31,867 bases of DNA from a virus. The notes under the pieces were generated by a model. The model ran no database searches. It was not told the origin of the DNA and was given only the letters and a program-made list of their open reading frames with translations. Positions 12,201 to 31,867 of the stretch are shown here, piece by piece. Position 1 is the first letter of the stretch. Every line of letters begins with the position of its first letter. The translations under genes and the position numbers were made by a program. The stretch covers positions 706 to 32,572 of IMG/VR virus record IMGVR_UViG_3300030390_002078, one strand, 5' to 3'.

Positions 12201-15200
12201 TATTTTTAGATAGCTATGGTAGACAATCACCTGTTTTTACAGATGAAACGGGAATTATAAGGTTAGATCAGTCAAAAGCAAAAACATCAAACAGAATACA
12301 ATGCTCTTTAGTTTCTCCAACGCCAGAATGGGCTACTCATTATAAGTATTATATAAAAGATTCTTCTAACGAGTATTACAATTTAGCTATGGATCGTTTT
12401 TACAGTGATATTGAAGATCAAAACGTTTGGATTTCTTTTCCTTCTTCTGAGATTAACAAGATAAATGAAAATGATTATATTGCTATAAAAAAAGAACATG
12501 ACACTGAAAATGCGGTAGACGTTCCATCAGGTGCAACAATAAAGTATAAAGTTTTAGACAAGCAGGCAGAACCACCAGAACACATAAAGTTTAAAATGAA
12601 ACAAATTGGAGAAAGTAATGATAAAACTACTTTTTCTTCAGGACGTGTTGTTTTAGACACTGACTCAAATTCAGCAAAAAATGCAAAATATGATTTACAA
12701 CTTTCTGGTTACCCAGCACAAGGAAAATCTAGTTTTTCAATAAGTGCTTTTGATCTTAAAGATGATGCAGAGTTTTTAGATGAGTTAGAATCTTATATAA
12801 CTCACACTGGTGTTTGGTATGATGTAGAAAATAGATTTTTTGACATTACATCAAAACTAAATGGTAGTGTTTCTGAAAAATACGAATTAACAAATATATA
12901 CAAAAAAACTATAATAAACAAACAAAGCTCTTCTAATAAAGCACATGGAGTTACTCCTCACAGAAACCTTTGTTTTAAAGCAGAAGGAACAACCTCATCT
13001 TCAACTTTTACTGTTGACACATCATCTCCTTCAGCAACTTCTAAAAGCGCTTTAACTGATATAAATTCTTTATTGCTTATCCAAGTTGGTATGAGAATTA
13101 CTGACAGTGAAAAGTCAGGTAATTTTACTAAGCGTGGTCAGGTTGTTTTAGTTACAGATGTTAACGCAGGGACTGGGGTAGTAACGTTAAGTGAGTCTAT
13201 ATTAATAAATGACGGAGAAGAAATAATCATGAAAGATGCTGTTGATGTTTATTTGTTTAAAACAAAAGAACCTTTTGGCGCTGATATAGGTTTTTTAGGA
13301 CAATCTCCTCAAGCTACAAAAATAGAATTAATAGACATAGCTACAACGTCTTATAGCGAAAGCAGCACGGTATTGCCAAACCCACAAGACTTAAATTTAA
13401 AGCTTACATTTTTCAAACAAACAACTGATGGTTTTGGTGAAGAATTTAAAGGTAAGTTTTTTATTAAAACAAAAAGAGACGCTATATTAAATGATTTTAT
13501 TTACAAATCTCAAAGCTCAATAAACACTTTTAAAAGTAAAGATTCTGCTCCGGTTTACTATGCTCAGTCATGGCTTTTAGACCAAGGAGATAGCGATGCA
13601 ATTATTCCAGACACAAATCTTTCAACTTCTAGTGATTATATAAAAGAAATATTAGATATACCTATAAACACAAACCCTTACGAATCTACTGACGGTCACG
13701 GTGATCAAGTTACTATTAATTTAAAAAACGCTACTAAAAAATTTGGGTATTTTGATGGTTCCAACACTAGACTTATTGCTAATACTGCGAATGGTAATGG
13801 TTTTTGCTTAAACCCAGAAACAGCACCAATATCCAGCGGTAAGGTTGATTACGCTGCTACTGTTATGTTAAATGGAACTGCCACAAGAATAAAGTTTGGT
13901 GGTGTTACAAGAGGTATTTTAAACAGTACTATTTATACTGGCATGGATTCAATAAATGGCTACAGCATGAAAGAGTTAGACTATGGCACTCCTATAAACT
14001 CTGGTGGAGTTTCAAACCCATCTGTGTGTATTGATCAAAGTGTTGGTTTTAGAGTTATAGATAAAACCGGAACAACTTGTCGTGGAGCTGTGCCATACGT
14101 TGGAGATGGTTGGCAAATTGGTAAGACTTTTTGCACTTTTAAGTTTTTTGGATTAGAAAGAATGTCGGCAACAAAAGGTAATTTAGGTAACTTATATAAT
14201 TTTTACAAATATTTAACAACACCTGGGCAAACCTTTAGGTTTACAAAAGATCCTACAAATACTGTTTATATAATAAGACAGTGCGAGACTTTTGAAGCTG
14301 TTAACACTACTTGGGGAGTGGGTAGAACAGAAATGAAGATAGAGAAAAATGACAGATCTGACATACCTTATTATGACCAAGCTGTTGGCGTTCAAATACA
14401 ACTAGACAAAGGTATAGTTTGGAGTCCTTTTGATGAAATTGACAACCAATCTTTACCAGCTATATCAAACTTAGAGCTAAGCTCTGATTCTTATGCTACA
14501 AATAAAACTTTTACATCTGCAGAGGCAAAATCTAATAGTGAAAAAGTTGCAAAAAGAAACGCTAGTGTTTTCTCTGCTTTTGAAGTTGATTTTGGTGAAG
14601 TAGCAATAAGTAGTAACACGCCTGCTGTTTTTGAAGTTTTACCAAAAGAAAAAACTGATTTAGAATTATTTTACGAAACTCCTAGCACAAAGATGATTGT
14701 AAAAGATGGTATGAGTGTTGAGACAAGTTATAGAACGGTAAACGGAGAAAACCCACTAGATGTAAACGCTGTTGTAAGCAAAGACACGTTGTCACAGGGT
14801 AATATTTTTCAAATAAAACCTTCTTTTGTAAATCAAATAGTTCCTGCTGGAGAAACTGTTACTGTTTTTAAGAAAGATCAAAACGGAAACGTTGTTTACA
14901 AAGATGATTTTGTTTTGTCACAACCACTATTAACATCAAGTAGTTCTCAATTAACTGTTGCTAATAATTTTCAAGCTGTTGGCAACGATATTTATAACGT
15001 TATTGATGCTACTTCTGAAACTAAAAACTTAAACTATTTTAATTGCTTTAGTTTTGGTAATGGAGTTGAGTCTAACAGGTTGTTTGATGATTACAATGCT
15101 GTAACTATTGACAAAGGTCCTAGGGTTTCTACTATACTAAATACTGATTACAAAGAAGAGCGTAAAAAAAATGGATTAATATATTCTGGTATATATAACT

Positions 15201-16501
15201 CTAAGTCTAGTTTTAACAACTTAAACCAATTTATACAAGGTGAAAAAATAACTAAAGATTTAAACCCTGATTATGGGTCCATACAAAAACTATTTACAAG
15301 AAACACAAATGTAATTGTTCTTTGTGAAAACAAAACTTTAAAAGTTTTAGCTAACAAAGATGCTTTGTTTAATGCTGACGGTAATCCTCAGCTAACAGCC
15401 ACAAACAAGGTTTTAGGTCAAGTTGTACCATTTGTTGGTGAGTATGGTATTTCTACAAACCCAGAGTCTTTTGCTTCTTATGGTTATAGATGTTATTACA
15501 CTGATAAAAAAAGAGGTGCTGTTATTAGACTTTCTGGAGATGGCATAACTAACATATCAGAAAAAGGTATGTCTAAATTCTTTAGAGAAAACTTAGATAA
15601 CTCTTTAAAAGTTTTAGGTTCTTACGATTCTTTAAAAGATAATTATAATGTTACTTTAAATAATAACACTGTAAGTTTTACTGAAAAAACAAACGGATGG
15701 GTTAGTTTTAAATCTTTTATACCAGAACAAGGCTTATCAATACTAAATTCTTATTACACTTTTAAAAACGGTGAGATATACATGCATAATGAGTCTTTAG
15801 CTAGAAATAATTTTTACGGAACTTCTTACGATTCTACTGTTAAATTAATTTTTAATGGCGAACCAGATACTGTTAAAGATTTTAAAACTATAAGCTATGA
15901 AGGTGATGCTGGTTGGGTTGCTGATTTAATAACAACAGATAAAGAAAGCGGAAGCGTGCCAAGCTTTATAGAGAAAGAAGGTAAATACTTTAACTTTATA
16001 AAAGGAACTAAAATAAATAATGATGTTGATTTGTTAAAAACTCAAGGTTTAAATGTTCAAGGTATTGGAAAACCGTCTACTGTAACTTTAAATGGAAACG
16101 TTAGAAGTTTTACTCACACTATTACAGCTTTAGATATAGCTTCAAACACAGAACCTAAAAAATGGATAATAAACAATTCTGAAACTAGTTCTACGTCTAC
16201 TAGTAATAAAATCAAGTTTAATCAAAAAATTACAAATACAGGAAATACAGTTAGAAGTTTTTATATTCACCCTCAAGTAAACAAAGGTATTGCTTGGAAG
16301 CTAGATAACAATGACTTTACGTTTTCTTTTACAGAAAACCCATCAATACCTAATTTTTCAGGATCTGTTACAACAGAAATGGTTGGTGATAAAGTTAAAG
16401 TTTCAGTATCAATAACAACAGGTGGAAGTACATACCCGCAATCAAACACAAGATCAGTGTTAACAATAACAGCTGGATCAGCTTACCAAGAACAAATATA
16501 A
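9203..16501 (+). CDS. Giant tail protein (tail nozzle / stabilization type), 2432 aa
   Basis: This very large protein probably forms the distal tail tube. Residues 11-30 are GKMNKDLDERLIPNGQYRDA, a highly distinctive N-terminal motif that I associate with the large tail/stabilization proteins of marine podoviruses (functional analogues of T7 gp12 and P22 gp10). Residues about 394-535 and 611-757 look like two tandem carbohydrate-binding-like beta-sandwiches; the second closes with IDNVSVKK, typical of such modules. Small beta modules starting with a Gly-Met turn lie at about 290-345 and 1290-1344. Residues about 1990-2133 contain CYYTDKKRGAVIRLSGDGIT and look like propeller-type blades. The rest is mostly beta and Ser/Thr/Asn-rich. 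There is no signal peptide. It follows the 373-aa gene in the same frame and ends one base before the next ATG. T7 gp12 is about 800 residues, so this version is roughly three times larger. Confidence 0.8.
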   Translation: MPELKNVFHAGKMNKDLDERLIPNGQYRDALNIDISFSESSDAGSAQNSYGNIEKSDHNITGAKCIGSLIDKENQNVIWFISGTSVDAIAEYNPLTGVVVPVLVDTNKGSSSAFLNFNNDFLITGANVIDELLFFTDNSSEPKKINISRMKNGSTNFSTTTKYQNSDGTYTSNVYEELITVIKKYPLNAPKVKLESSIREGNVKGISRTSGNTAYVESPSISEADLNSQDVLTSNIYASTSGGANILNITDSNYIERVSANFPVDGNASNIISFSTTNFTTGSAYKKWRAIEPGMKVAISENGAGTFVEPKRYHTVKTVDWLNHTITVDTKSFVTNPLNSTKVRIGHWSEPYNNDYFWAYRDSSGNTLKKPIGTSSSVKTDLDGNILKDGGILADGTGFDIALTGSDATAGSGQLQYGTGWSYNSGTKTYSYDGSGSSSQRYPKVTKSTDLLEGHIYQMKATITITTAGIIGFLSKNSNLNQTVYNGLNGNETRRYEVGTHEVSIKWKQKVSGDNGMLALFGLTTTVGSIKITEINCLTKARPVKIQPITFLGNTSYEVNDIINLQADDVTAENPDSDKFVDISLKLSKKIRKVNGKIISSSHSNATGSGVVGDEKITAGDFSSLTSWHTGISGTTDVGTSSAGFFVDAGTLTSNSTEGYIRNVLDEVLVADEVYRLTYTVTAIEGEGALKLILGTEDAYIGDDLDKGHSNHLLLPSSATGTFNVYWKQKSLARGAFSLTELMFYNNSAWNGNIDNVSVKKVTGNTTTTCGVIGTNDNGRQAFEAEILSIDDSIIGNIGSLSFTSRRTQPDAIYEKEFARFSYRWKYMDNQYSAISPFTEVCFLPKNEEGYSYDSKDGYNKSMVNDVRRINLSGISSMPEDVKSIDILYKKSNATNVYIVRTVENKDFEELKTKDSIVITSEEIKSLLPENQMLRPYDNVPRKALSQEVTANRLMYGNYLQQYNYFNTPAEFKVKINSFDVGDGPLRSLKSIRDYQVGVVFLDSYGRQSPVFTDETGIIRLDQSKAKTSNRIQCSLVSPTPEWATHYKYYIKDSSNEYYNLAMDRFYSDIEDQNVWISFPSSEINKINENDYIAIKKEHDTENAVDVPSGATIKYKVLDKQAEPPEHIKFKMKQIGESNDKTTFSSGRVVLDTDSNSAKNAKYDLQLSGYPAQGKSSFSISAFDLKDDAEFLDELESYITHTGVWYDVENRFFDITSKLNGSVSEKYELTNIYKKTIINKQSSSNKAHGVTPHRNLCFKAEGTTSSSTFTVDTSSPSATSKSALTDINSLLLIQVGMRITDSEKSGNFTKRGQVVLVTDVNAGTGVVTLSESILINDGEEIIMKDAVDVYLFKTKEPFGADIGFLGQSPQATKIELIDIATTSYSESSTVLPNPQDLNLKLTFFKQTTDGFGEEFKGKFFIKTKRDAILNDFIYKSQSSINTFKSKDSAPVYYAQSWLLDQGDSDAIIPDTNLSTSSDYIKEILDIPINTNPYESTDGHGDQVTINLKNATKKFGYFDGSNTRLIANTANGNGFCLNPETAPISSGKVDYAATVMLNGTATRIKFGGVTRGILNSTIYTGMDSINGYSMKELDYGTPINSGGVSNPSVCIDQSVGFRVIDKTGTTCRGAVPYVGDGWQIGKTFCTFKFFGLERMSATKGNLGNLYNFYKYLTTPGQTFRFTKDPTNTVYIIRQCETFEAVNTTWGVGRTEMKIEKNDRSDIPYYDQAVGVQIQLDKGIVWSPFDEIDNQSLPAISNLELSSDSYATNKTFTSAEAKSNSEKVAKRNASVFSAFEVDFGEVAISSNTPAVFEVLPKEKTDLELFYETPSTKMIVKDGMSVETSYRTVNGENPLDVNAVVSKDTLSQGNIFQIKPSFVNQIVPAGETVTVFKKDQNGNVVYKDDFVLSQPLLTSSSSQLTVANNFQAVGNDIYNVIDATSETKNLNYFNCFSFGNGVESNRLFDDYNAVTIDKGPRVSTILNTDYKEERKKNGLIYSGIYNSKSSFNNLNQFIQGEKITKDLNPDYGSIQKLFTRNTNVIVLCENKTLKVLANKDALFNADGNPQLTATNKVLGQVVPFVGEYGISTNPESFASYGYRCYYTDKKRGAVIRLSGDGITNISEKGMSKFFRENLDNSLKVLGSYDSLKDNYNVTLNNNTVSFTEKTNGWVSFKSFIPEQGLSILNSYYTFKNGEIYMHNESLARNNFYGTSYDSTVKLIFNGEPDTVKDFKTISYEGDAGWVADLITTDKESGSVPSFIEKEGKYFNFIKGTKINNDVDLLKTQGLNVQGIGKPSTVTLNGNVRSFTHTITALDIASNTEPKKWIINNSETSSTSTSNKIKFNQKITNTGNTVRSFYIHPQVNKGIAWKLDNNDFTFSFTENPSIPNFSGSVTTEMVGDKVKVSVSITTGGSTYPQSNTRSVLTITAGSAYQEQI

Positions 16502-18233: not shown

Positions 18234-18989
18234 ATGATAGATTTAATTTTAGAAATTTTTACTTACCAAGCAGATGCTAATTATGCTGTTGTTCCTATAG
18301 CTGCTATGATGGCTATAGGTGGTGCAACACAAATATTATCAGCTATTGATTTTGGTGGTAAAAGAAGAAAAGAAAGAGAAAATGCTAGAGCAGCTTACGA
18401 CAAACAGTTATCTGTATATAAAGGTTTAGACACTAGTAATCCTTATGCTAACATGAAAAACAGATACTCTGGTATGGAAAACCAATTTGCTGGCATGGAT
18501 AATGCTATGAGTGATTTACAAGTAAACACACAGCAAGCAGAATTTATGGGTGATCAGTTTCAGCAAAGCCAAGCTAACATAATGCAAAACATGCAAGGAG
18601 CTGCTGGTGGTAGTGGTGTTGCAAGTTTAGCTCAAGCAATGGCTAATTCAAGCGCTAAGTTTGCTAGACAATCAGCAGCATCTATAGGTGCACAAGAAGC
18701 TAAAAACAATATGATGGCTACTCAAAACCAAGCTAAAATAAATATGCTTACAGCACAAGAAGACTCTAAAAACCAACTAATGAAAGCTAAAGGTGCTACT
18801 ATGGTTGACCAGTCTATAGCTAAAGGAAAGCTCGCATCTATGCAGATGGAACAAAGCAAGCAAGGTACTATACTTGGTATGGATGCCAATAGAGTTGCAG
18901 CGTCAAATCAAGCACAAATGGCTGCGCAACAACAGATGGTTGGTGGTATTGGAAATATAATAGGTGGTTTAACATATAAAAAAGGATAA
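18234..18989 (+). CDS. Putative internal virion (DNA ejection) protein, gp14-like position
   Basis: This 251-residue protein starts with a hydrophobic stretch (about 17-40, including VVPIAAMMAIGGATQIL), then a basic segment (KRRKER), then a long helical, Ala/Gln/Met/Asn-rich body that should form coiled coil. Residues 75-95 hold three tandem heptads: KNRYSGM, ENQFAGM, DNAMSDL. A Gly-rich hinge (GAAGGSGVASLAQAMA) follows at about 122-137, and the C-terminus is again Gly-rich. The composition and the early membrane-like helix match small internal core proteins that enter the cell envelope during ejection (T7 gp14 by analogy). The next two genes would be the gp15- and gp16-like partners. The start ATG is preceded by an AT-rich 41-base spacer without a Shine-Dalgarno sequence. 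No direct homology to T7 gp14 is claimed. Confidence 0.72.
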   Translation: MIDLILEIFTYQADANYAVVPIAAMMAIGGATQILSAIDFGGKRRKERENARAAYDKQLSVYKGLDTSNPYANMKNRYSGMENQFAGMDNAMSDLQVNTQQAEFMGDQFQQSQANIMQNMQGAAGGSGVASLAQAMANSSAKFARQSAASIGAQEAKNNMMATQNQAKINMLTAQEDSKNQLMKAKGATMVDQSIAKGKLASMQMEQSKQGTILGMDANRVAASNQAQMAAQQQMVGGIGNIIGGLTYKKG

Positions 18990-18990
18990 T

Positions 18991-20637
18991 ATGGCATTTG
19001 GAAAAGCAGACATAGGTTTAATACAAGCAGATAGAGCGGCACAAAAAATAGATCCTAACTTAGGTATAGGTATGGCTGTTGATAAAACGCTTGATGGTAT
19101 GAAGCAAGCGGCGGCAGCACAATCTACTGCAATGAAAAAGTACGTTCAAAACTCAGACGGTGTATTTGACAAAGCAATTGCTAAACACCAAACAGGAGAC
19201 GACAGTCTCAAACCAATTGTTCAAGATTGGATGACAACCACAACTACATCACACAAAGGTGATCACGCAAATTCAAATAATCAAATAAGTAGGTCTAAAT
19301 CTTTAAACAGTGCTAAAGAAGATATTGTGTTTGGTAACGAGTTAAACTCTTATATAGTTCAAACAATAGAAAACAACGGTGTTATGAGTCCTGGAATGAG
19401 TAAAGCTGACCAGTACTTTTCTAAACAATTTGGTGGGCAAAATTTTGAAATAACCAGTCAAGATGGTGTTCGTGGTATTAGCATACCAAACGAAAATGGT
19501 AATGGCTCAACTTTTTTTGATAGAAACAATCTACCAGTAGGTTTTAGTAAGTTTAATGAAGGAAGCACAGCTATTTTAGGTATATGGAACACACAATTCG
19601 GAAATAATACTGATTATAGTAAACTAAAAAACCCAGGTACTGATGGTGAATATAAGGACGCTTTGATGATCTCTAACAATGGCAAGCCTCCAAACTATCA
19701 CCAAACTTTAGATCTTATAACTCAAGACCATAGTAAAGATGGTGTTGACAACCCTTTCATGAAACAATTTAAATCAGGTGTATTAGACCCTTCTTTTTAT
19801 CAAAATGAAGACGGTACATACATTAGTGTTAATGGTAAAACTTACAGCCCTGACGCAAGCCTTAACTACAACACAATGGATCCAAGAGGTGGTTTATCAG
19901 AACAAGATTTAGAAGATTTTTTAAGAAACAAAAATAGTGAAGGAACAGTTGAATATCAAAATAGAAACAATCATGTAAATTTTGTTGTTGATAAGTATTC
20001 TAAGTTTATGGGTACTATAACTAATGACGAGTACGAAAATAAACAACAGGAGTTAATGAAGCAAAACCAAACTTATTTTAATAATCCAAACGAAGACGGT
20101 TCTTTTTCAACGTTTTTTACAACTAAAGGTGTTGAGCCTAAAAGCAGTGCTGTTAAAACAAGAAAAAATACAGTTAATAACAGTATGCGTTTTGATGCTG
20201 CTACAACAGCATACGTAGGAACTGGAGTTGATAATCGTGGTGGTGATGGAGCAGAGCTTCAAAGAGTTACTAACTGGAATAGTTTTGACTTTGAAAGTCA
20301 ATTAAACTCTACTGGTAAGCTTGATAAAAACAATACTGAAAAAGGAGACTTTGTTAGCAACCTAATGCAGCAGTATAAAGGTTCTAATATTGAATTTGAG
20401 TCCGCTGAAAAAGGAGTTTTATCAATACAAATGCCTGATGAAGATGGTAATATGATAAGACATGTTTATGACTTTACTAAAGGTGATAAAAACGATGTTA
20501 TGAAAGAGCTTGAATCTAGGCTTAATCTTGCTGAGTTTGGAGATGGTTTTGGCGCCGACGCTTTAGGTAACGATGCTAGTACTTGGTACGATCAGTTAAA
20601 TAAGAAAAATAAAAGAATAGAGACAAAACTAAACTAG
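18991..20637 (+). CDS. Putative internal virion protein, gp15-like position
   Basis: I cannot name a domain in this 548-residue hydrophilic protein. The N-terminal 60 residues are helical and Ala/Gln-rich (GMKQAAAAQSTAMKKYVQ). The middle is mixed, with many Asn, Gly and Asp. The end is acidic-helical with a Lys-rich tail (DQLNKKNKRIETKLN). No signal peptide or membrane segment is present. It lies between the gp14-like gene (one-base junction, TAATATG) and the giant gene, the place of a second internal core protein that would build the ejection channel. It ends in TAG. The downstream 3593-residue frame follows in the same reading frame after a single TAT codon, so readthrough would fuse the two into one chain of about 4143 residues. 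Function is inferred from gene order only. Confidence 0.66.
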   Translation: MAFGKADIGLIQADRAAQKIDPNLGIGMAVDKTLDGMKQAAAAQSTAMKKYVQNSDGVFDKAIAKHQTGDDSLKPIVQDWMTTTTTSHKGDHANSNNQISRSKSLNSAKEDIVFGNELNSYIVQTIENNGVMSPGMSKADQYFSKQFGGQNFEITSQDGVRGISIPNENGNGSTFFDRNNLPVGFSKFNEGSTAILGIWNTQFGNNTDYSKLKNPGTDGEYKDALMISNNGKPPNYHQTLDLITQDHSKDGVDNPFMKQFKSGVLDPSFYQNEDGTYISVNGKTYSPDASLNYNTMDPRGGLSEQDLEDFLRNKNSEGTVEYQNRNNHVNFVVDKYSKFMGTITNDEYENKQQELMKQNQTYFNNPNEDGSFSTFFTTKGVEPKSSAVKTRKNTVNNSMRFDAATTAYVGTGVDNRGGDGAELQRVTNWNSFDFESQLNSTGKLDKNNTEKGDFVSNLMQQYKGSNIEFESAEKGVLSIQMPDEDGNMIRHVYDFTKGDKNDVMKELESRLNLAEFGDGFGADALGNDASTWYDQLNKKNKRIETKLN

Positions 20638-20640
20638 TAT

Positions 20641-23600
20641 ATGGCTGAAGAAACAAACTTTTCCTACGCTCATGGGTTATCCGCTGATTCAGAGGCGGGT
20701 GTAAACGTAATGAAAAACGATAATGGTAATAAAACTAAGCTTGGAGACGGTACAATAGCTTATTCTAAAACTTATTATGGTCTTACTTTGTCCGCTTGGA
20801 TGGATTGGAATGATAAAAAAGTGCCTAAAAAATGGACTAGTAAAAACTTTAAAAAACTAAACGACGAATACAATCTAGAGTTTTCAAACGCTACCAAAAA
20901 ATCTTCAAATACAATACAAAGCGCTGGTAAAGCTAAAGTAGAAACATATTTTAAAGACAATATCTGGGACAAGCATAAGCTTGGTGAAATAACAGATAAA
21001 AAAGTAGGAGCTAGTATATACGATGCTATGATTAACCAAAACTTTACTTTTGGTGATAAAGGCAAAAAAAATAAAACAATTCTTACAACGCTAAAAAACG
21101 CTGGTTATACTGTTCCAGGAGGTAAGTTTACTGATCTTGATGACGCTATTAAACATGTTAATTTAGCTATTGCAGATGAAAATGTTGGTGGAGATAAAGT
21201 TTTAAATGCTTACGCTAACAGAAGAGAGGAGAGCTATATAAAAACAAGCGAAAAAGACACAAACTATACGTTCAACAGGGGTTGGATGAAAAGGCTTAAC
21301 GAGCACAGAACAGAAAACAAGATAGACTCTACAAAGCTAACTGACACAGAGGCAATGACTACTGACAGTTTAACAGCTGCAAGAGTTGTAACTCCAGAAA
21401 TAACTGCTACAGCTGAAAAAATAGACATGACGTCTACAATACCTGGTGTTGGTCCAGAAATAAAACCTGGTCCATTTGCTACTAAGAAAGAACCAGCAAT
21501 ACCAGGACTTCCAAGTAAAGATGCATTTGAAAAAGAAAAAAGTAAAGAAGTAACTAACGTTGCTGTTGATGATAACAATACTGATAACAGTGAAACATCT
21601 ACAGTTTCTGACGAAAGCACAGAAACACCTTTCATGCTACCATCAGTTAAACAGGCTTTAGAAAACTCTAAAGACCCAAAGTACATAAAAGAATTAAAAA
21701 AGCAAGGCTACACAGCTGAACAGTACTTAGAAAATCCAGAACAAACTTTAAATGAAATAAGTAAAAAGTTAGATATAGAAAGTAATTTAGGCGAAGCACC
21801 AGCACCGCCAATATTATCTATGGGTGTTGAAAACAAAGCTAAAGAAGAAGTAGAAATAGAAACTCCTACAGAAGATATAAACGAAGTAGAAGAAGATGAC
21901 AAAGATGATTTTCCAGGTGGAGTAGATGACACTTCTAAAGTTGAAGTAAAAGAAGAATTAGTTGAAATTCCTAAAAAAGATCTTGAGTTAATAAAAATTG
22001 AACCAGCAGAGGAAAAGTTAGCTACTGCAACAGGTGGTAAAGAGGTTGCGGAGAAATACAAGACTAGTATTACAAAAACAACAGCAGGAGTAAACGATGA
22101 AGATTTTGTTTTTACTGAAGAAAAAGATGACAACGAACTAGAAGTGCAAGAAAACAATGCTATCACTACAAGCATTTTTAAACCAAATCCTCTTTCATCA
22201 TCTTGGAGCAAATCATTTTTTAATAAAGACGAAAAAAAGGTAGAGGTTAAAAATACTGAAACAGAAGTAGAAGTAGAAGATAACACTATTACTATGACCA
22301 ACTTACCTCCTGGATATTCAAACCGAGCTGAGCCAATTTCAGCAGGTGGAGACGTTATGGATAGTGAGGGTAAAATTACCAACACAAAAGTAGAGGCAAG
22401 GATTGCAGAAAAAGAAAGGTTGAAGTTAGAGAAAGAGAAAGCTTTCGCGGCTACAGTTGTTGATGTTGATCCAGAAAAAAAGTCTAAAGAAATTGCTTCT
22501 AAGTTTGAGTCTGAAGAAGATATAGTTGACAACCCGCTTGGTGTTAACCCAAAGTTAATAGACCAAATGAACAAGGTTGACTTGAACGAAGGTATTGTAA
22601 CAGAGGTTGATCCTAACGCCGCAACTGATACCGGAGGAGGTGATATGTATAGCAAAAAAGTAGAGTTTAATGAGAAGAGAATAAAAACCTATGAAGATGT
22701 AGTTTTAAATCAAATAAATAGAGAGAACGGTACAAACTATGCTACAAAGGAAGAGCTTTTTAATAGTGGTGATGAGATTAAATTAGACAGAAGAGTTTTT
22801 GCGTCAACATCACCTCAAGATATTTTTAGAGATAGAGTTGGTATTTTTACAGGTGAGAACGCAATGAACACTAATCTTAGGGATAGAAACCAACAGTACG
22901 ACCAATCATACCTACAAAACATAACAGACATTGCTGTTGCAGACAAGGCATATAAAAACATAATAACTTTAGATAAAGATGATCTTGATAATTCTCTTAT
23001 TAAAAATCTTTTTTTAGATTTACCTAACTCTGAAAGATTAGACTTTGGAAAGTTTAACGATCAAATGAAACTAGCGGTGCTTAACATAGTAAAACCAGAA
23101 GAGTTTAAAGCTATAGCCCAAGGAGATCCAAGATATAACGCTGCATATAAAAATTCGGTTGTAACAGCTGCAAAAATTCAGGTTTTAGCAAACGAAAACT
23201 TAGTTTTAAATAAACAAGGAGAGGTTTATGTTGGGTTAAACGCTGAACAAGAAAAAAGAGAAAAACAATTTTTTACTTCTAAAAATGATTTAGTAAACGC
23301 TTTTGAAAATGTAGACTTAGAATTAAGATCTATAAAAGAAAAGTACGGAAGCTTTATATGGGATAGAAGAGGAGCGGAGGTTTACTTACCTGATAGTATT
23401 AAAATACCTATAGATCCTAGAGACACTAAAAGAGTTTCAGAGATCAATGAGTACTTGTTAACACTTGACGAAGATAGAAAAAGCTTACAAACAGAAGGTA
23501 ATGAGTTAAAACTTAATAGAGAAAGTTTAAATAAAAAAGTAGGTGAGTGGCAAAAGAATATTGAAGGTTCTTGGAAAGCTCTAGCTTTTGACATGGCTAA

Positions 23601-26600
23601 ACCTATTGAGCAACAAAAAAATGCTTTTAGTGGTTTTTCAGCTAGTCAAGCTTTTGACATAGGTCTTGACAAACTAACTGAAAACTTTTTTGGAGCAGTT
23701 GGAGAAATTGGTTTAAACTTTGGTGAAGAAATGTTGAGGTTAAAGCTATTGAAAAAGGCAGTAAACCCAACAACATTACTTGCTATGGGAGCTGGTTACA
23801 ATATATCTAAAGTAATGGATAACAGCTTGTATAAAATTGGTGATGCAGGTGGTGGTATGAAAGCAACTAGTTGGGGTGGAGATGGTTATTCATATAACGA
23901 TCAATATCTTGACTTTTTAGCAGGAGCTGCAACACAAAAAATAGTTCCTTCAAATAAAATAGACAAACTTATAAACCCAACAGATGAAGATGGTGAAGGG
24001 TTTTTAGCTGGTCTTTTCAACCCTAAAGCTTACAACCCTTCTTTGTATACTATATCCAAAACAGTTGCAGACTTACTACCATATACATTGAATATTGCTT
24101 CTGCTGGGTTAAAAGCTAGTGTTAGGTCTGATGCTGCTTTAAGATCTATGTCTAGAAAGTCTACTACTTTTAATAAGGTTATGAATAACTTAACTCCTTT
24201 TGAAGGTGCTAATATTACTATGGGTAAAATGGGAGATAAGATAATATCGTCTCTTCACAAAAGTTTTAAAAATGCTACACCCGCGACTAGGGAAAAATTA
24301 ATGGGAGGTTTAAAAATGATAGATGTTAATCATAGAATGTTATTTTTTGACAACCTTTCAGATGCTAGAGCTCAAGGCTTGTCTGGGGATAAAGCAGTAT
24401 TTTATGCAAACGCAACTACACTAGCAACAGGTATTAGCCAGATGGTCATGCCTGATGTTAATTTTTTAAAGAGTACTTTACAAGGAAGAAACTTAATTAA
24501 AACATTTGTTAGTAACATTAAAAACGTAGGTACACAAGAAGCAATGAAAGCTCTTAACAGCCAAGCCATTAGAGGTGCTATGAAAACTTTTACTACAAAC
24601 TTCTTTAAAGAACATGCTGAAGAACAGCTAGATGTTATTTTAAATGACGTTGTTAAAGCAAATTTCTTAGCTGATTACTCTTGGGAAATATCTGATGTTA
24701 GAGCTCAAAGAGAAATACTTGTTGGAACAACTTTGCTTACAGGTGGTTTAGGTGGTAGACAAGCTATATCAACAGTAAGAAACACAAAGCAATTAATATA
24801 CAACGAGATTCAAGATAAAAATATTGAGTTAATGAACTTTTCTAGAATGGAGCAAAAAGAAATAGAAAAGAAGTTAAACGAGTTTAAAAACAAAAAATCT
24901 GGAAACAAGCAATACAACAAGCGTAAAATAAAAGATCTACAAAAAAGACTTGAAGATGAGCAAAAAATAGAGAAAAACGTTAGAAATATAGCTCAAGCTA
25001 TAAACGCAGCTCCAAAGTATGCTACAATAGACCAGATAGATACTATAATAAAAAAGAATGACCTTGTTAAAGAAAAGCAAGAGTTGTTAAAACGAAAAGA
25101 CAAAACGGGTGTAAAAAAACAAGTTGATAAATTAAATGAGCAAATAGCTGGTTTAGACACTAAGCTAGAAAGTTTAGACAACACTGAGTGGAAAAAGAGT
25201 CTTTACAACATGAGTTTGAAAAAGGGTAAAAGCATGTTAAAGATGTTTGGTATAGACGTTAATATTGTAGAGGGTGGTAAAAAAGATTTTGCTAAAGCTG
25301 TGGCAGCAAAAAACCAAGAGATTAAAATTAAAAACGAAGAGAGAAAAAAGAAAGGTTTAAAGCCTTTGCCTTTTCACAAATATGATGAAAACTCTGTTGG
25401 CGTGGTTATATATGATGACATTGGGAATAAGCCAATAATCTTTATAAATACTAAAGACACAGACGGTAAGAACGCAGTAGAAACAGACGACAACTATGGT
25501 GTTGGTTTTCACGAGGTGTTTCACCTTGTGTTTAGACAGACAGTTCTTAAAAACCCTAAAGCAGTTAAAGGTTTATCTTTTTTAATGAGACAAGAACTTT
25601 TAGGTAAAAACAAAAGAAAGTACATGTTTTCTGATAAAACTAATTACGTTAGTGGTAAGTTTAAAACATACGAAGACAGAGTAAATGGTATGGAGTGGGA
25701 CGAAATGTTTAGTGTTATATCTGAAGGTTTAGTTCAAGGTGATATTAAATTTAACTCCACGTTCTTAAGTGGTGTTGGTGATGTTATAAGAAGAACATTA
25801 AGTAAAGCTGGTATAAACTTTAAAATAAAAGGTACTAAAGGTATTATTAACTTTATAAGAGATTACAACAATGAGCTAGAAGGAAATAAAGAGTTTTCTA
25901 GAGGTATGAGAAAAACTATAAAAAATGGTTTAAAAATAGACAGCAAAGAAATTAGACAAGCTATTGTTGATGCTGAAGCTTTTGAAAAAGAAAACAAAAT
26001 GCCTGAGTGGATGTCGAAGTCTTTTTCTAGTGCGTCTACAAGAGGTGGTAGATTAAGAAATAAAAAGAATGTTTACGAAAGAGATGACGTTAAAGCTGAT
26101 ATAAAACTTTCAGAAAATACTCAAAAAATTGTTGATGAAAATACTAGAATAAGAGAAGAGCTTTTGGAAACAAGAGAGCAAGACGAGTTTGGAGAATTTG
26201 TTTATGACGAAGATTTAAGAAACGACTTAGTTGTAAACAACATGGCTTTAGTTACAGCTTTGTCTGACTTTGCAGCTAACAATCCTAAAATAATGGGACT
26301 GGAAGAAGGTAAAAGAGTTACTTTTGATCAGTTTTCTGCTGGTTACTCAGAGCAATTACTAAAACTTTCTAGAACCTACGATCCAGCGCTTGTACCGTTT
26401 GGTGCTTATTTAAACAGTTTGTTACCACTTAGATACAACGCTATAAAAGATGAAGCTCAAAAAGGAATGATTGAAGGATCTGTTAGTATAGAAAATGAAA
26501 AAGTTGGTGACATTGCAGATGATTCAACGCCATCTGACTTTGACAATGCTCCTAGATTTACAGCGCCTAAATATAATGTTGCTAAAGAAATTGGAGTAGA

Positions 26601-29600
26601 AGAAGAAGTAAAAGAACAGATAAGTGAAGGTTTTAGTGAGTTAAAACAATTAAAGAAACTTATTAACGAAGAAAGCCAAAGCGGTGAAACTATAGAGCAG
26701 TTAAAAGAAAGCTTAAAAGAAAAGCACATGCTTGATCTTGACTTAGACACTATGGAATTGAGTAGTGTTGAAGGATTAACTTATAAAACTATAGCTAGAC
26801 TAACAGGCATAGACGTTGACAAATTAAACCCAAGAAGCTCAAGCTTTTTAGCTAATTTAAGAAAAAAAGATACTAAAGCAGGTCCTAACGAGGTTAGGCC
26901 AGCACAAAGGTTTATAGCTCGCCGCGTTCAACTTATACTTTCCACTATATTTAATGAGGGTCATACAAAAGCTTTTAAATCTACTAACATGCCAAATGTG
27001 TTGCTAAGGTTTGGTTATAATAAAGGTTCTAAAAGAATTAAAAATAATTTTCCTCAATATAAAAAACCAAATCTAAGTGAGAGTGATTTTTTAGAATACT
27101 TAGGTATATTTAGAGTTACTAAAGATGGTAAAAAAGGTTTTGAGTTTAATGTTGATAGAAACACAAGTGCTAAGCTAACGGCTGTTTTATCTTTATTAGA
27201 CAGAACAATAACAAATCAGCAGATAAGAAAATCTTTAGAAGCTACGGGTGATTTAAACGAAAGACTTAAAAACTCTTTAGAAGACGGTTTAGCTGAGTCT
27301 TCACAATCTAAAAAAGCTAGAGAACTTATAGCTAGGTATGGTGCTGATATGGAAGTAGGAATAAAAGAGCGTATGCCAGAAGTTGCTCTTGTTCTTCAAG
27401 AAATAGATCATGAAAACACTAAGCAAAGCGCTATGATAACTAAAGTATCTAAAGTGTTTTCTAAAGATGGTTTTTTATTAAACACAGAAGCTAAAGCGCT
27501 TGTTGGCGATATGTTCAAAGAGTCTGGAATAGTTAAGCAGTTTATGTATCAAAAAGCAAATTTACAATCTCAAGGTGTTGAAATAGAACCTTTTGAGGAG
27601 TTTGCTGAAAAATACATGTTAGTAGAATTTTATGTAGGGCTTGCTGAAAAAATGGGTTTAAAAACCAAAGATGGTGACACGCCAACAGGAAAACAAATAT
27701 TTAATAGAAAAGCTATAACTAAAGGTAGAAAATTTGTTGCTGAGCAGATAAAAAGCATAGTAGATAGGTTTAAAAGTGGTGAGATAACCATGAAAGAGGT
27801 TTTGGAAGAGATTATGATGGAAGAACAAAATCATATTACAGCTTACAAACAAGGTGATGGTGAGTATATATCTATAGCTGGTACGGATAAGTTTGTAAAA
27901 AACCCTAAATACAAAGAAGGCGGAACACCTAGGTTTCAACTATTTCACTCTGAAGAAGGTCCAAAAGCGGATTTTAGAAAGTATATATACTCTTACGGTA
28001 TGGATCAAGATTTTATTGATGCAATGGAAAAAGAGTACCCGGGAAGCACAGCTATATTTAAAGATGGTAAATCAGATAATTTTGTTGAAATAAAATTTGA
28101 GCCACAAGACGGTGAAGGAGTTTTAAAACAAATGGTTAACTTGATGAAAAAAGTTACCCGTAAAGGTGCTAACAAGTATAGTCAAAAAAAGAAAGATGCA
28201 GAAGCTGAATTAGCTCGTAAAGCTTTAGTAAATAAAATTATATTTTTAGCTGATAAGCTTGAAAATGACTCTTCATTTACAGAGCAAGACTTTGTTGTTC
28301 AGATGATGACTCTTATGAGCAACCCTAGCACTACATTAAGAAGAGCTGGTAAGGTTGTTGGTATAATGGACGGTATAATAGACGAGGACGGAAACTTTTT
28401 GCTTGATGCAAAAGGTGTTGTTTCTAATTCACTTATAAGGTTTGAGCATCAAAAACCAGCTTCTTATCTTTTAATGAAAATGATAGATGTTGTTTTAAAC
28501 AAAAAAATAAAATCTACTGATTACAAAAAACTTTTTGACAAAGAGCTTATAGACTATAACGTAGCTATAATTACTAAAAAAGCAGATAAAACATTAGACA
28601 AAACCGGTTTAAAAAACATGATGGGGTTAGTTTATGAAGCTGGTAAAGAGTTTGGTTCTATGATCAGAATGTTTAATCCTATAAATAGAGGTGATAAAAA
28701 CGTTAAAGCAATAAGACTTATAAAAGATGTTGTTAACGGTGTTAAAGGTTTAGTGTTTGGTTTAGATCACAGTATAGCTGCAGAGTTAATGAACAAGCCA
28801 ATGGTTGAAGTAGAGCAAGATATGAAAATTAGTAAACTAACTCAATCAGCAAATTCTGTTAAGTACAATAGAGAGCCTAGAGGTATGAGTGCTTTTGATT
28901 TTGATGAGACAGTTGGTATTAGCGATAACTTTGTAATAGCTACTAAAGATGGTGAAACAAAACGTATAGCTTCTGATGAGTGGCCTATGGTTGGTGATCA
29001 ACTTGTTAAAGAAGGTTGGAAAATGGATTTTAGTGATTTTAACAAAGTTACTAACGGTAAACCAGGCCCGTTGATGGAAAAAATGAAAAACCAGATTAAA
29101 AAGTTTGGTCCTAAAAACGTTTTCATACTAACAGCAAGAGCTCCAGAAAGCCAAGCGGCAATACATGCTTATTTGGAAAGTGAAGGTATAAAAATACCTA
29201 TTGAAAATATTACTGGTTTAGGTAACAGTACTGGTGAAGCAAAAGCATTGTGGATGCTTAACAAGTTTGCAGAAGGATATAATGATATGTATTTTGTTGA
29301 TGATGCTTTACCAAATGTAGAAGCTGTTAAAAATGTTTTAGAACAACTAGACATTAAATCTAAAGTTCAAATAGCTATATCTAATAAAAGTTCTAAGTTT
29401 GATAGAGATTTTAATGAAATACTTGAACAACAATCTGGTGTAGAAGCTAAGAAAAGATTTTCTAAAGCAAAAGCTAGAAGAAGAGGTGAAGAGAAAAATA
29501 AGTTTAAAATATTAATACCACCATCTGCTGAGGATTTTATAGGTTTAATATACTCTTTTTTAAGTCCAGGAAAAAAAGGAGAGCAACAATTTGAATGGTT

Positions 29601-31422
29601 TAAAGAAAACTTAATAAAACCACTAAATAGGGGTTACCAATCTTTAAACAATGCTAAGCAAGCTATAGCAGGTGATTATAAAGCTTTGTTAAAAAAGATG
29701 CCTGTTGTTTCTAAAAAATTGTATAAAAAAATACCTAACTCAGATTACACTTATGGAGATGCTGTTAGGGTTTATTTATGGGATAAGTTTGGTTTTAAAA
29801 TACCAGGACTTACAGATACAGATCAAGCTGATTTAGTAAAAATAATATCTTCTGATATAGAATTAAAAGCCTTTGCAGATCTTTTAGGCATTGCTTCTAA
29901 ACAAGAAGGTGGTTATGTTAAGCCAGGTGACCATTGGTTAACTGAGGATATTAAAGTAGATTTACAAAATGCTGTTTCTAAAATAAACAGAAAACAGTTT
30001 TTTGCAGAGTTTTTAGAAAATGTAGGTATAATATTTTCTCCAGAAAACATGAATAAAATAGAAGCTATATACGGTAGAAATTACAGAGAAGCTTTAGAAG
30101 ACATGTTATATAGAATAGAAAATGGTACTAACAGAAGTTTTGGAGATAATAGAATTGTAAACAGGTTTATGAACTGGATAAACGGAGCTATTGGTACAAC
30201 AATGTTTGTAAACGTAAGATCTGCTTTGCTACAAACTCTTTCTACTGTTAACTTTATAAACTGGGAAGACAACAACGTTATAGCAGCTGCTAAAGCTTTT
30301 GCTAATCAAAAACAATTTTGGGCGGACTTTTCAATGATATTTAACTCAGACATGTTAAAGCAAAGACGTAGTGGTTTATCTATGGATGTAAATGCTAACG
30401 AACTAGCTGATTACGTTGCAAACTCTGGTAGTATGATTGACAAGTATAAAGCTGCTGTAAACTACATACTTACAAAAGGTTTTTTACCTACACAAATTGC
30501 AGATAGTTTTGCTATCGCTTCTGGTGGTGCTACGTTTTATAGAAACAGATTAAATAAGTATGTTGCTGAAGGTATGAGTGTTCCTGAAGCTAAGAAAAAA
30601 GCTTTTAATGATTTTCAAGCTATAGCAGAAGAAACACAACAGTCTTCTAGACCTGATATGATTTCTCAACAGCAAGCCTCTGTTTTAGGTAGAATTATAT
30701 TAGCTTTTCAAAACACACCTATGCAGTATGCGCGTTTAACAAAAAAGGCAGCTTTAGATTTAATAAACGGAAGAGGTAGTATGAAGGCAAATATTTCAAG
30801 AATAGTTTATTACGGTGCTGTGCAAAATGCGATATTCTATGCTTTACAAACAGCTTTGTTTGCTATGATGTTTAGTGACGACGAAGATGATGAAGAGTTT
30901 TTTGATAAAAAACAAGAAAGAATAATAAGTGGTAGTATAGACAGTTTGCTTAGAGGTATGGGTATTGGTGGTGCTGTTATATCTACTATAAAGAACATGA
31001 CTATAGCTTTTTACAAAGAACAAGAAAAAGATTATAATAAAGATGAATCTGCTGTAATTATGGAATTAGCAAACTTATCTCCACCAATAGGTATTAAGTT
31101 TAGACAAATAAGAACTGGAGAAAGAGCAATACAATGGAATAAAGATCTTATAGAAGAACTTCCTTATTATAATTTAAAAAACCCTGTTTGGGAAGCTGCA
31201 TTTGCATTTACTCAAACAGCAACAAACATACCTATGTCAAGGCTTTATCAAAAAGTAACAAATGTTTCAGAAGCTTTTGGAGAAGATTTAGCTGCTTGGC
31301 AAAGAATTGGTTTAATGGCAGGTTGGACAAAGTGGAACCTAGGTGTTGAAAACTCTAAAACAGCAAGTAAAAGAAGAAGTAAAAACAAAAGAAAAAAAGT
31401 AACTAAAACATTCAACTACTAA
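20641..31422 (+). CDS. Giant polyvalent virion protein with muramidase-, zincin- and HAD-like domains
   Basis: This 3593-residue protein is probably packaged and injected at infection, as T7 gp16 is. Domains in order: (1) residues about 8-232, GH108/PG_binding_3-like muramidase, candidate catalytic Glu18, YDAMINQ helix, and FNRGWMKRLNEHR at 211-223. (2) About 236-665, an acidic Glu/Thr/Lys/Val linker. (3) About 665-1400, helical, unassigned, with hydrophobic stretches near 1025-1080. (4) About 1401-1520, Lys/Glu coiled coil. (5) A zincin-like domain, HEVFH at 1624-1628 and possible third ligand Glu1688. (6) About 1855-1975, a sigma-region-2-like segment with YDP 1913-1915. (7) About 2748-2925, HAD hydrolase, Asp2753/Asp2755, Thr2831, Lys2868, Asp2887/Asp2888. 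(8) About 2960-3500, a conserved-looking C-terminal region with QNTPMQYAR and a hydrophobic helix near 3388-3411, possibly an LPD38-type domain. The end is very basic. The domain mix resembles polyvalent proteins. Whether it is proteolytically processed is unknown. Confidence 0.82.
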   Translation: MAEETNFSYAHGLSADSEAGVNVMKNDNGNKTKLGDGTIAYSKTYYGLTLSAWMDWNDKKVPKKWTSKNFKKLNDEYNLEFSNATKKSSNTIQSAGKAKVETYFKDNIWDKHKLGEITDKKVGASIYDAMINQNFTFGDKGKKNKTILTTLKNAGYTVPGGKFTDLDDAIKHVNLAIADENVGGDKVLNAYANRREESYIKTSEKDTNYTFNRGWMKRLNEHRTENKIDSTKLTDTEAMTTDSLTAARVVTPEITATAEKIDMTSTIPGVGPEIKPGPFATKKEPAIPGLPSKDAFEKEKSKEVTNVAVDDNNTDNSETSTVSDESTETPFMLPSVKQALENSKDPKYIKELKKQGYTAEQYLENPEQTLNEISKKLDIESNLGEAPAPPILSMGVENKAKEEVEIETPTEDINEVEEDDKDDFPGGVDDTSKVEVKEELVEIPKKDLELIKIEPAEEKLATATGGKEVAEKYKTSITKTTAGVNDEDFVFTEEKDDNELEVQENNAITTSIFKPNPLSSSWSKSFFNKDEKKVEVKNTETEVEVEDNTITMTNLPPGYSNRAEPISAGGDVMDSEGKITNTKVEARIAEKERLKLEKEKAFAATVVDVDPEKKSKEIASKFESEEDIVDNPLGVNPKLIDQMNKVDLNEGIVTEVDPNAATDTGGGDMYSKKVEFNEKRIKTYEDVVLNQINRENGTNYATKEELFNSGDEIKLDRRVFASTSPQDIFRDRVGIFTGENAMNTNLRDRNQQYDQSYLQNITDIAVADKAYKNIITLDKDDLDNSLIKNLFLDLPNSERLDFGKFNDQMKLAVLNIVKPEEFKAIAQGDPRYNAAYKNSVVTAAKIQVLANENLVLNKQGEVYVGLNAEQEKREKQFFTSKNDLVNAFENVDLELRSIKEKYGSFIWDRRGAEVYLPDSIKIPIDPRDTKRVSEINEYLLTLDEDRKSLQTEGNELKLNRESLNKKVGEWQKNIEGSWKALAFDMAKPIEQQKNAFSGFSASQAFDIGLDKLTENFFGAVGEIGLNFGEEMLRLKLLKKAVNPTTLLAMGAGYNISKVMDNSLYKIGDAGGGMKATSWGGDGYSYNDQYLDFLAGAATQKIVPSNKIDKLINPTDEDGEGFLAGLFNPKAYNPSLYTISKTVADLLPYTLNIASAGLKASVRSDAALRSMSRKSTTFNKVMNNLTPFEGANITMGKMGDKIISSLHKSFKNATPATREKLMGGLKMIDVNHRMLFFDNLSDARAQGLSGDKAVFYANATTLATGISQMVMPDVNFLKSTLQGRNLIKTFVSNIKNVGTQEAMKALNSQAIRGAMKTFTTNFFKEHAEEQLDVILNDVVKANFLADYSWEISDVRAQREILVGTTLLTGGLGGRQAISTVRNTKQLIYNEIQDKNIELMNFSRMEQKEIEKKLNEFKNKKSGNKQYNKRKIKDLQKRLEDEQKIEKNVRNIAQAINAAPKYATIDQIDTIIKKNDLVKEKQELLKRKDKTGVKKQVDKLNEQIAGLDTKLESLDNTEWKKSLYNMSLKKGKSMLKMFGIDVNIVEGGKKDFAKAVAAKNQEIKIKNEERKKKGLKPLPFHKYDENSVGVVIYDDIGNKPIIFINTKDTDGKNAVETDDNYGVGFHEVFHLVFRQTVLKNPKAVKGLSFLMRQELLGKNKRKYMFSDKTNYVSGKFKTYEDRVNGMEWDEMFSVISEGLVQGDIKFNSTFLSGVGDVIRRTLSKAGINFKIKGTKGIINFIRDYNNELEGNKEFSRGMRKTIKNGLKIDSKEIRQAIVDAEAFEKENKMPEWMSKSFSSASTRGGRLRNKKNVYERDDVKADIKLSENTQKIVDENTRIREELLETREQDEFGEFVYDEDLRNDLVVNNMALVTALSDFAANNPKIMGLEEGKRVTFDQFSAGYSEQLLKLSRTYDPALVPFGAYLNSLLPLRYNAIKDEAQKGMIEGSVSIENEKVGDIADDSTPSDFDNAPRFTAPKYNVAKEIGVEEEVKEQISEGFSELKQLKKLINEESQSGETIEQLKESLKEKHMLDLDLDTMELSSVEGLTYKTIARLTGIDVDKLNPRSSSFLANLRKKDTKAGPNEVRPAQRFIARRVQLILSTIFNEGHTKAFKSTNMPNVLLRFGYNKGSKRIKNNFPQYKKPNLSESDFLEYLGIFRVTKDGKKGFEFNVDRNTSAKLTAVLSLLDRTITNQQIRKSLEATGDLNERLKNSLEDGLAESSQSKKARELIARYGADMEVGIKERMPEVALVLQEIDHENTKQSAMITKVSKVFSKDGFLLNTEAKALVGDMFKESGIVKQFMYQKANLQSQGVEIEPFEEFAEKYMLVEFYVGLAEKMGLKTKDGDTPTGKQIFNRKAITKGRKFVAEQIKSIVDRFKSGEITMKEVLEEIMMEEQNHITAYKQGDGEYISIAGTDKFVKNPKYKEGGTPRFQLFHSEEGPKADFRKYIYSYGMDQDFIDAMEKEYPGSTAIFKDGKSDNFVEIKFEPQDGEGVLKQMVNLMKKVTRKGANKYSQKKKDAEAELARKALVNKIIFLADKLENDSSFTEQDFVVQMMTLMSNPSTTLRRAGKVVGIMDGIIDEDGNFLLDAKGVVSNSLIRFEHQKPASYLLMKMIDVVLNKKIKSTDYKKLFDKELIDYNVAIITKKADKTLDKTGLKNMMGLVYEAGKEFGSMIRMFNPINRGDKNVKAIRLIKDVVNGVKGLVFGLDHSIAAELMNKPMVEVEQDMKISKLTQSANSVKYNREPRGMSAFDFDETVGISDNFVIATKDGETKRIASDEWPMVGDQLVKEGWKMDFSDFNKVTNGKPGPLMEKMKNQIKKFGPKNVFILTARAPESQAAIHAYLESEGIKIPIENITGLGNSTGEAKALWMLNKFAEGYNDMYFVDDALPNVEAVKNVLEQLDIKSKVQIAISNKSSKFDRDFNEILEQQSGVEAKKRFSKAKARRRGEEKNKFKILIPPSAEDFIGLIYSFLSPGKKGEQQFEWFKENLIKPLNRGYQSLNNAKQAIAGDYKALLKKMPVVSKKLYKKIPNSDYTYGDAVRVYLWDKFGFKIPGLTDTDQADLVKIISSDIELKAFADLLGIASKQEGGYVKPGDHWLTEDIKVDLQNAVSKINRKQFFAEFLENVGIIFSPENMNKIEAIYGRNYREALEDMLYRIENGTNRSFGDNRIVNRFMNWINGAIGTTMFVNVRSALLQTLSTVNFINWEDNNVIAAAKAFANQKQFWADFSMIFNSDMLKQRRSGLSMDVNANELADYVANSGSMIDKYKAAVNYILTKGFLPTQIADSFAIASGGATFYRNRLNKYVAEGMSVPEAKKKAFNDFQAIAEETQQSSRPDMISQQQASVLGRIILAFQNTPMQYARLTKKAALDLINGRGSMKANISRIVYYGAVQNAIFYALQTALFAMMFSDDEDDEEFFDKKQERIISGSIDSLLRGMGIGGAVISTIKNMTIAFYKEQEKDYNKDESAVIMELANLSPPIGIKFRQIRTGERAIQWNKDLIEELPYYNLKNPVWEAAFAFTQTATNIPMSRLYQKVTNVSEAFGEDLAAWQRIGLMAGWTKWNLGVENSKTASKRRSKNKRKKVTKTFNY

Positions 31423-31424
31423 CA

Positions 31425-31867
31425 ATGAAAAAACTAATAATAATTATATGTATAGCACTTGTTGCTTGCTCAACACCTAAAGAGTGTTGTTCTCAAGATT
31501 TTAAAAAGTATTTTAAGTTTGCTACGTTTTATGCTGCAGCTAATGGTGGTAACTCTATATCGGATGTAGATGTGTTTTCTGTTACTGATGGTTTAAACAC
31601 TGTTACAGTATCAACACCGTACGATTACAACTTAGCTCTAGGTATACGTAAGATTGCAAGGTTTGGATATGAAAACAAAGCTCAAACGTTTTATGATGGT
31701 ACTGAAAACTCATGGTCTGACGGTGCTAATGTAGGTAAAGTACGTGGGTTAGAGTTTTTGTTTGAAGTAGATTACACAAGACAACAAGGCATAGACTACT
31801 TAGATCAACATCACTTTGTTAGATATGTAGATGATATGTATATAATAAAAGGTGAATACTTAGAAGA
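31425..31867 (+). CDS. Exported lipoprotein-like phage protein, 3' end outside window
   Basis: An open frame of 147 codons runs to the window edge. It starts MKKLIIIICIALVACSTPKE: two Lys, a hydrophobic core and a lipobox LVAC with Cys15, so it is a likely lipoprotein; a Sec type I signal is the alternative. The mature part has alternating aromatic and polar residues (YFKFATFYAAANGGNSISDV, then LALGIRKIARFGYENKAQTF, then GLEFLFEVDYTRQQG), compatible with outer-membrane-facing beta structure or a beta-barrel. I recall similar marine phage proteins but no function. It begins two bases after the giant virion gene, so the two are co-transcribed. Export to the host envelope would suit a role in superinfection exclusion, receptor masking or lysis, but this is inference. 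No Shine-Dalgarno sequence is seen. Confidence 0.8.
   Translation, partial: MKKLIIIICIALVACSTPKECCSQDFKKYFKFATFYAAANGGNSISDVDVFSVTDGLNTVTVSTPYDYNLALGIRKIARFGYENKAQTFYDGTENSWSDGANVGKVRGLEFLFEVDYTRQQGIDYLDQHHFVRYVDDMYIIKGEYLE

Follow-up and report, generated by a model that had tools for sequence, protein, structure and literature searches.

A giant polyvalent-type protein with a predicted sigma-region-2-like domain and an invariant HAD motif set in an uncultured lineage of crAss-related podoviruses

The last structural gene of an uncultured, marine, crAss-related lineage of Bacteroidota podoviruses encodes a giant protein, residues about 1816-1949 of which are predicted to fold as region 2 of a sigma-70 factor. 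It is proposed, with a probability of roughly 0.55, that the protein is an ejection protein of the polyvalent type, in which wall lysis (where present), processing, capture of the host RNA polymerase (RNAP) and a phosphatase would be joined in one chain. The window (the whole stretch of DNA analysed, 31,867 nucleotides) was taken from a viral metagenome record of 32.6 kb, in which it spans bases 706-32572. An earlier note on this DNA had described the same protein as an injected toolkit; that reading was incomplete because it missed the sigma-like domain, the most telling part.

Genomic context and relatives

The giant frame is uninterrupted from the ATG at 20641 to the stop at 31422 (3593 aa), as the earlier note had read it, and stands last in an operon of structural genes of the terminase-portal-MCP-muzzle type (Table 1). 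On its 5' side lie a terminase fragment, the portal, the MCP and a 2432-aa muzzle-type protein (9203-16501, + strand) in which the crassvirus muzzle C-terminal domain scores above the Pfam cut-off; this domain ties the lineage to the crAss-like podoviruses. The 251-aa and 548-aa proteins upstream of the giant protein had been called gp14- and gp15-like, a description that holds for their position but not for family likeness, family searches having given no meaningful match for either. Nearly all of the relatives listed have a gene of 345-764 aa abutting the giant gene upstream, and in nearly all of them a gene of about 200-360 aa lies two genes upstream. Directly 3' of the giant gene, a partial gene (31424-31867, + strand) starts with a lipoprotein-type signal (MKKLIIIICIALVACSTPKECC) and possibly encodes an envelope or superinfection-exclusion protein; several relatives (L003, L008, L009 and L010) have a gene of 349-360 aa in this place, two sampled examples of which were without a Pfam match.

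Table 1. Features of the giant protein and its upstream neighbours, in positions of the window.
Feature	Position	Strand	Remarks
251-aa protein	18234..18989	+	gp14-like by position only
548-aa protein, adjoins giant gene upstream	18991..20637	+	gp15-like by position only
Giant protein gene	20641..31422	+	3593 aa, last gene of structural operon; relatives from 19 + 80 loci
GH108-like muramidase domain, aa 17-132	20689..21036	+	Pfam PF05838 above cut-off
Acidic linker, aa about 235-689	21343..22707	+	poorly conserved; net charge as low as -21 per 100 aa
Zincin-like metallopeptidase domain, aa about 1520-1762	25198..25926	+	HEVFH 1624-1628, E1688
Sigma-70 region 2-like domain, aa 1816-1949	26086..26487	+	predicted structure and profile comparison
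Helix-turn-helix, sigma region 4-like (tentative), aa 2045-2074	26773..26862	+	Sigma70_r4_2 E 0.021, below cut-off
Mostly helical region, without assigned fold	27088..28845	+	invariant His H2603 in E-H-x-x-P motif
HAD-superfamily phosphatase domain, aa about 2748-2915	28882..29385	+	motifs I-IV, predicted fold
All-helical C-terminal region, aa about 2940-3593	29458..31419	+	conserved; polyvalent-protein type fold (predicted)

Two scans of IMG/VR gave 19 loci and then 80 loci, the latter from at least 581 confirmed candidates encoding the giant protein, and the group is therefore abundant. Portal (58-83%) and MCP (about 47-66%) were found in 40/40 tested related records, so that these phages are regarded as one lineage. 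Both proteins match those of Flavobacterium (Elemovirus), Cellulophaga, Maribacter and Tenacibaculum podoviruses, which makes a marine member of the Bacteroidota the most likely host. A tblastn search of cultured phages with the giant protein returned nothing convincing, and no isolate of the phage collection encodes it.

The order of domains, which the earlier note had thought worth following through metagenomic phages, recurs after the N-terminus in about 100 relatives. Close to 100 relatives among the matches listed, whose complete giant frames measure 2229-4311 aa, share a variable N-terminus, one HExxH zincin, the HAD phosphatase and a helical C-terminus, in this order. In every locus listed the giant frame includes the HAD domain, and its distance to the C-terminus is constant; in the relatives listed the zincin-to-HAD spacing is 815-1245 aa and the helical stretch beyond the HAD is about 850-1050 aa long. 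Each giant protein has a single HExxH, except L012 (an HExxxH variant) and fragments. Identity in diverged relatives is 10-17% over the first 250 residues, 2-13% in the acidic linker, 10-22% in the zincin and sigma-like parts, 49-80% in the HAD and 24-68% in the C-terminus. On the sequences compared, an arrangement kept in about 100 listed relatives is not chance, and the constant core consists of zincin, sigma-2-like region, helical region, HAD and C-terminus.

Some giant proteins depart from this pattern in detail. That of L041 has an insertion of about 480 aa directly after HAD motif IV (about aa 2444-2924), flanked by a local sequence repeat (VLDQLDVRSKV / VLDQLDIKSDV), which does not look like an intein. 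The giant frames of L020 and L030 are in two parts, about 280 bases apart; the split in L020 is a frameshift relative to the 96.6% identical L017 and probably a sequence error.

N-terminal wall hydrolase and zincin

Scans of the single sequence against Pfam, PHROGs, NCBIfam and PADLOC gave GH108 and otherwise weak hints only. GH108 passes the Pfam cut-off with 22.1 bits vs 21.2 (26.8 bits when the N-terminal piece is searched alone), and is followed by a weak PG_binding_3 at residues 182-219. The muramidase claimed in the earlier note is present here, but it is not a constant part of the protein: a recognisable wall hydrolase was found in 7/84 N-termini of relatives (GH108 in four, SLT in two and glucosaminidase in one), and since its type also varies it is regarded as an exchangeable accessory. 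The idea that a muramidase belongs to the common architecture was rejected for the same reason.

The HEVFH motif is the sole HExxH of the giant protein. Its H/E/H residues are invariant, and E1688 is invariant in A3 and conserved to at least 90% in A6, so that the HExxH and the Glu in a later helix that mark zincin-like metallopeptidases are both present; the fold is weakly supported, the predicted model of this region matching anthrax lethal factor modestly (Z about 6-7 at an rmsd of about 5 A). The zincin assignment of the earlier note is upheld by these residues and this fold match. A survey of polyvalent proteins likewise connected the zincins of these proteins with lethal factor and suggested processing of the chain as their task (PMC5512222), and it is plausible that the zincin modelled here would do likewise.

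HAD phosphatase and helical C-terminus

The HAD domain had been recognised in the earlier note, and its identity is now borne out by conservation and structure prediction. Motifs I-IV (DxDxT, T, K, DD), represented by D2753-F-D2755-E-T2757, T2831-A-R, K2868 and D2887-D2888, are all invariant in 86 sequences. When residues 2700-3593 were modelled with AlphaFold (mean pLDDT 76.8), the domain adopted the predicted HAD Rossmann-like fold; the best 50 VIA rows are mostly HAD phosphatases, including class B/C acid phosphatases (Z 6-8), and Acid_phosphat_B is met in relatives with E 0.0019. Judged by its fold and motifs, the domain is plausibly a phosphatase that acts on a nucleotide-type substrate. 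Conservation of the HAD about equals that of the portal and is somewhat above that of the MCP, so it cannot be called uniquely hyperconserved.

The C-terminal region ranks second in conservation along the chain and is shared among the relatives listed, in agreement with the earlier note; its AlphaFold pLDDT is mostly 70-94. The giant protein has no Pfam LPD match, and the BFVD matches of the predicted C-terminus are proteins named large polyvalent, PolyVal ART or MuF C-terminal, those bearing LPD names having a TM of about 0.3-0.5. The E-H-x-x-P motif with its invariant His at residues 2602-2606 (28444-28458, + strand), between the sigma-like part and the HAD, is possibly a further active site.

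A sigma-70 region 2-like domain

Sigma-70 region 2 is the predicted fold of the part that follows the zincin, and two independent routes, structure comparison and profile-profile comparison with controls, agree on it. By eye, the pattern of sigma regions 2.1-2.4 is repeated in residues 1855-1950. The model of residues 1520-2700 has a mean pLDDT of 72.3, with a moderate value of about 60-82 in the sigma part. Of its best 50 PDB entries in VIA, sigma factors account for 39, with alignments to model residues about 297-430, and lethal factor accounts for 10, aligned to the zincin; the remaining one is unrelated. Sigma-32 is the best sigma match, with Z 9.2 and 2.9 A over 91 residues, to be read against the Z of 7.6 reached by the unrelated row, since with small helical folds a middling Z can come about by chance. 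Foldseek with the whole multi-domain model places SigA domain 2 at the top of its PDB matches (probability 0.89, E 1.2), and among the predicted models in BFVD a phage sigma is matched with probability 0.99.

For the profile route, 24 primary and 14 ECF sigma factors were aligned and compared with the giant-protein profile by hhalign. Sliding windows over residues 1790-1999 scored 35-36 (best 35.9, P 3.6e-5), vs an average of 9.5 and a maximum of 14.8 for shuffled columns (n=100) and at most 16.9 for windows of the helical C-terminus. Leaving out the clade of the window does not abolish the match (P 4.3e-5), nor does restricting the sigma factors to ECF alone or to RpoD alone; that small clade by itself is too shallow to give it, and two diverged subgroups tested alone were not significant, scoring no better than shuffles. 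A profile search of the PDB aligned SigA collinearly without significance (E 0.49), and no PDB sequence was matched significantly when the sigma, zincin and HAD profiles were used as queries. The helix-turn-helix at residues 2045-2074 is collinear with the sigma order in hhalign; its score, 26.2 vs a maximum of 16.2 for shuffles, is weaker than that of region 2, and its Sigma70_r4_2 score is 12-15 bits vs a cut-off of 25.7.

The protein is not filed as a sigma factor because the Sigma70_r2 and r4 cut-offs are not reached; the record of the window has no Pfam match to Sigma70_r2 at all. Furthermore, sigma region 2.3 has aromatic residues that are not conserved here, which casts doubt on promoter melting, and for this reason, together with the result for the diverged subgroups, the domain is called sigma-region-2-like. 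Descent of the domain from the phage's own sigma gene was considered and set aside, as the two have no special similarity.

That separate sigma gene is a genuine one of about 251-259 aa, present in 12/50 related records, nearly all of them the longest; such sigma-70 genes were seen in records L164-L172. Neither a multisubunit RNAP nor an RNAP of the phi14:2 gp66 type was found in 20 related records, which, being fragments, fall short of proving that the phages lack an RNAP gene. A search with PF00940 (phage-type RNAP) gave no match, and none in control genomes either, which makes it uninformative, and the giant protein itself is without a Pfam RNAP match and without a DFDxD motif. A sigma gene with no RNAP found in the 20 fragment records is consistent with reliance on the host RNAP.

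Comparison with known systems

Polyvalent proteins of phages, as surveyed by Iyer et al. 2017 (PMC5512222), resemble the giant protein in their very long chain, unrelated activities, HExxH zincin with a downstream Glu, lysozyme-type domain and late-gene setting, as well as in the C-terminus, whose predicted structure resembles proteins named LPD, PolyVal or MuF. Several unrelated domains are combined here in one polypeptide, namely GH108, zincin, sigma-2-like domain, HAD and helical C-terminus. Neither of the words "sigma" and "phosphatase" occurs in the main text of PMC5512222; in comparison with it, the invariant HAD and the sigma-2-like domain are new parts, the novelty of the sigma-2-like domain applying within the open-access literature.

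The N4 virion RNA polymerase is a protein of about 3500 aa in which an HExxH C1 domain precedes a large helical region (PMC12633501). The giant protein is similar in size, in this succession of an HExxH domain and a large helical region and in its putative ejection role, but it has no RNAP domain, a sigma-2-like part lies beyond its zincin, and it also carries a HAD as well as, in some members, a wall hydrolase. Giant proteins, an RNA polymerase included, also close the structural cluster of the crassvirus phi14:2 and were detected in its virions by MS/MS. The giant protein likewise ends a structural cluster, one whose 2432-aa protein has a crAss muzzle domain, whereas phi14:2 gp66-gp68 have no profile match to it. 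An equivalent slot is occupied by giant proteins annotated "structural protein" in the closest relatives in culture, elemoE (gp18, YP_010109083.1, 3694 aa) and Cellulophaga phi38:1 (gp101). Only elemoE gp18, which is of similar length, shares a detectable domain, a homologous zincin at 41 bits; profile comparison gave no match in it to the HAD, the sigma-2-like domain or the C-terminus, and homology to the HAD or the C-terminus was not detected by profile in the giant proteins of cultured relatives.

The earlier note had placed the protein in the slot of T7 gp16, which we take to be the last member of the ejection genes and to carry an N-terminal wall hydrolase (SLT). The last place of the giant gene in the operon and the N-terminal wall hydrolase (SLT in two relatives) do resemble gp16, but wall opening is optional in this lineage and its domain swapped. 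The giant protein is presumably about 2-3 times longer than gp16, with the zincin, sigma-2-like and HAD parts in addition.

Proposed role and alternative explanations

Synteny and the neighbours annotated as structural indicate that the giant protein is likely to be packaged with the genome and expelled into the cell along with the DNA. The N-terminal wall hydrolase, GH108 in this case, would open the peptidoglycan where it is present, and the zincin would probably cut the chain into working pieces or cleave a host protein. The sigma-2-like domain, perhaps with the helix-turn-helix, would dock on the host core RNA polymerase, a step we hold tentatively, at somewhat less than even odds; the outcome would be either that early viral transcription is started or that the host sigma is displaced. 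The HAD would remove phosphate from a nucleotide or another phosphomonoester in the new host cell, and the helical C-terminus would serve in packaging or translocation. A protease-like, a sigma-like and a phosphatase domain in one chain suggest immediate seizure of the gene-reading machine of the host. Of the injected toolkit of the earlier note, a multi-enzyme protein of polyvalent type in the ejection slot is retained but constant wall opening is not, and the strongest hint for its action on host molecules is the sigma-2-like fold.

In another reading the protein would serve ejection or form a channel, and its sigma-like helices would be no more than a look-alike bundle, or what is left of a decayed domain; they would make no contact with RNA polymerase, and only the HAD and the C-terminus would matter. 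Region 1800-2150 is indeed only 10-22% identical in diverged relatives vs 49-80% for the HAD, and the failure of the diverged subgroups to exceed shuffles and the middling Z common for small helical folds point the same way; we consider this unlikely, however, as sigma factors fill 39/50 of the best entries across the whole sigma-2 domain, the profile match survives removal of the window's clade with the ECF and RpoD alignments each sufficing, and region 2 and the helix-turn-helix stand in sigma order. That order also bears on a rather unlikely explanation in which the domain is an appropriator or decoy that blocks the host sigma or holds the RNAP without starting viral promoters, which the separate sigma gene would do later: the existence of that gene and the lack of conserved aromatic melting residues agree with it, but a helix-turn-helix in the region 4 position would be unneeded.

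A role confined to the particle is improbable. In that case the zincin would process the protein while particles are assembled, the protein would stay in them as a tail-tip or head scaffold, and the HAD would serve assembly. Zincin processing in head assembly has a precedent in DdrB of phage P1 (PMC5512222), and the HAD and C-terminus are conserved about like the portal; wall hydrolases at some N-termini and the last position in the operon nevertheless fit ejection better, and the polyvalent-type ejection protein is preferred.

The group is abundant, yet the phage collection holds no isolate encoding its giant protein. Conservation of the HAD at about the level of the portal implies that its substrate should be central to infection. 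It is possible, though doubtful, that the injected sigma-like domain replaces a virion RNA polymerase by capturing the host RNAP for the first viral promoters, or by withholding it from host genes, ahead of all viral gene expression. If so, this lineage would carry a sigma-like domain where N4-like phages and crassviruses carry a virion RNA polymerase, which would be a different, and directly testable, solution to starting the first transcription.
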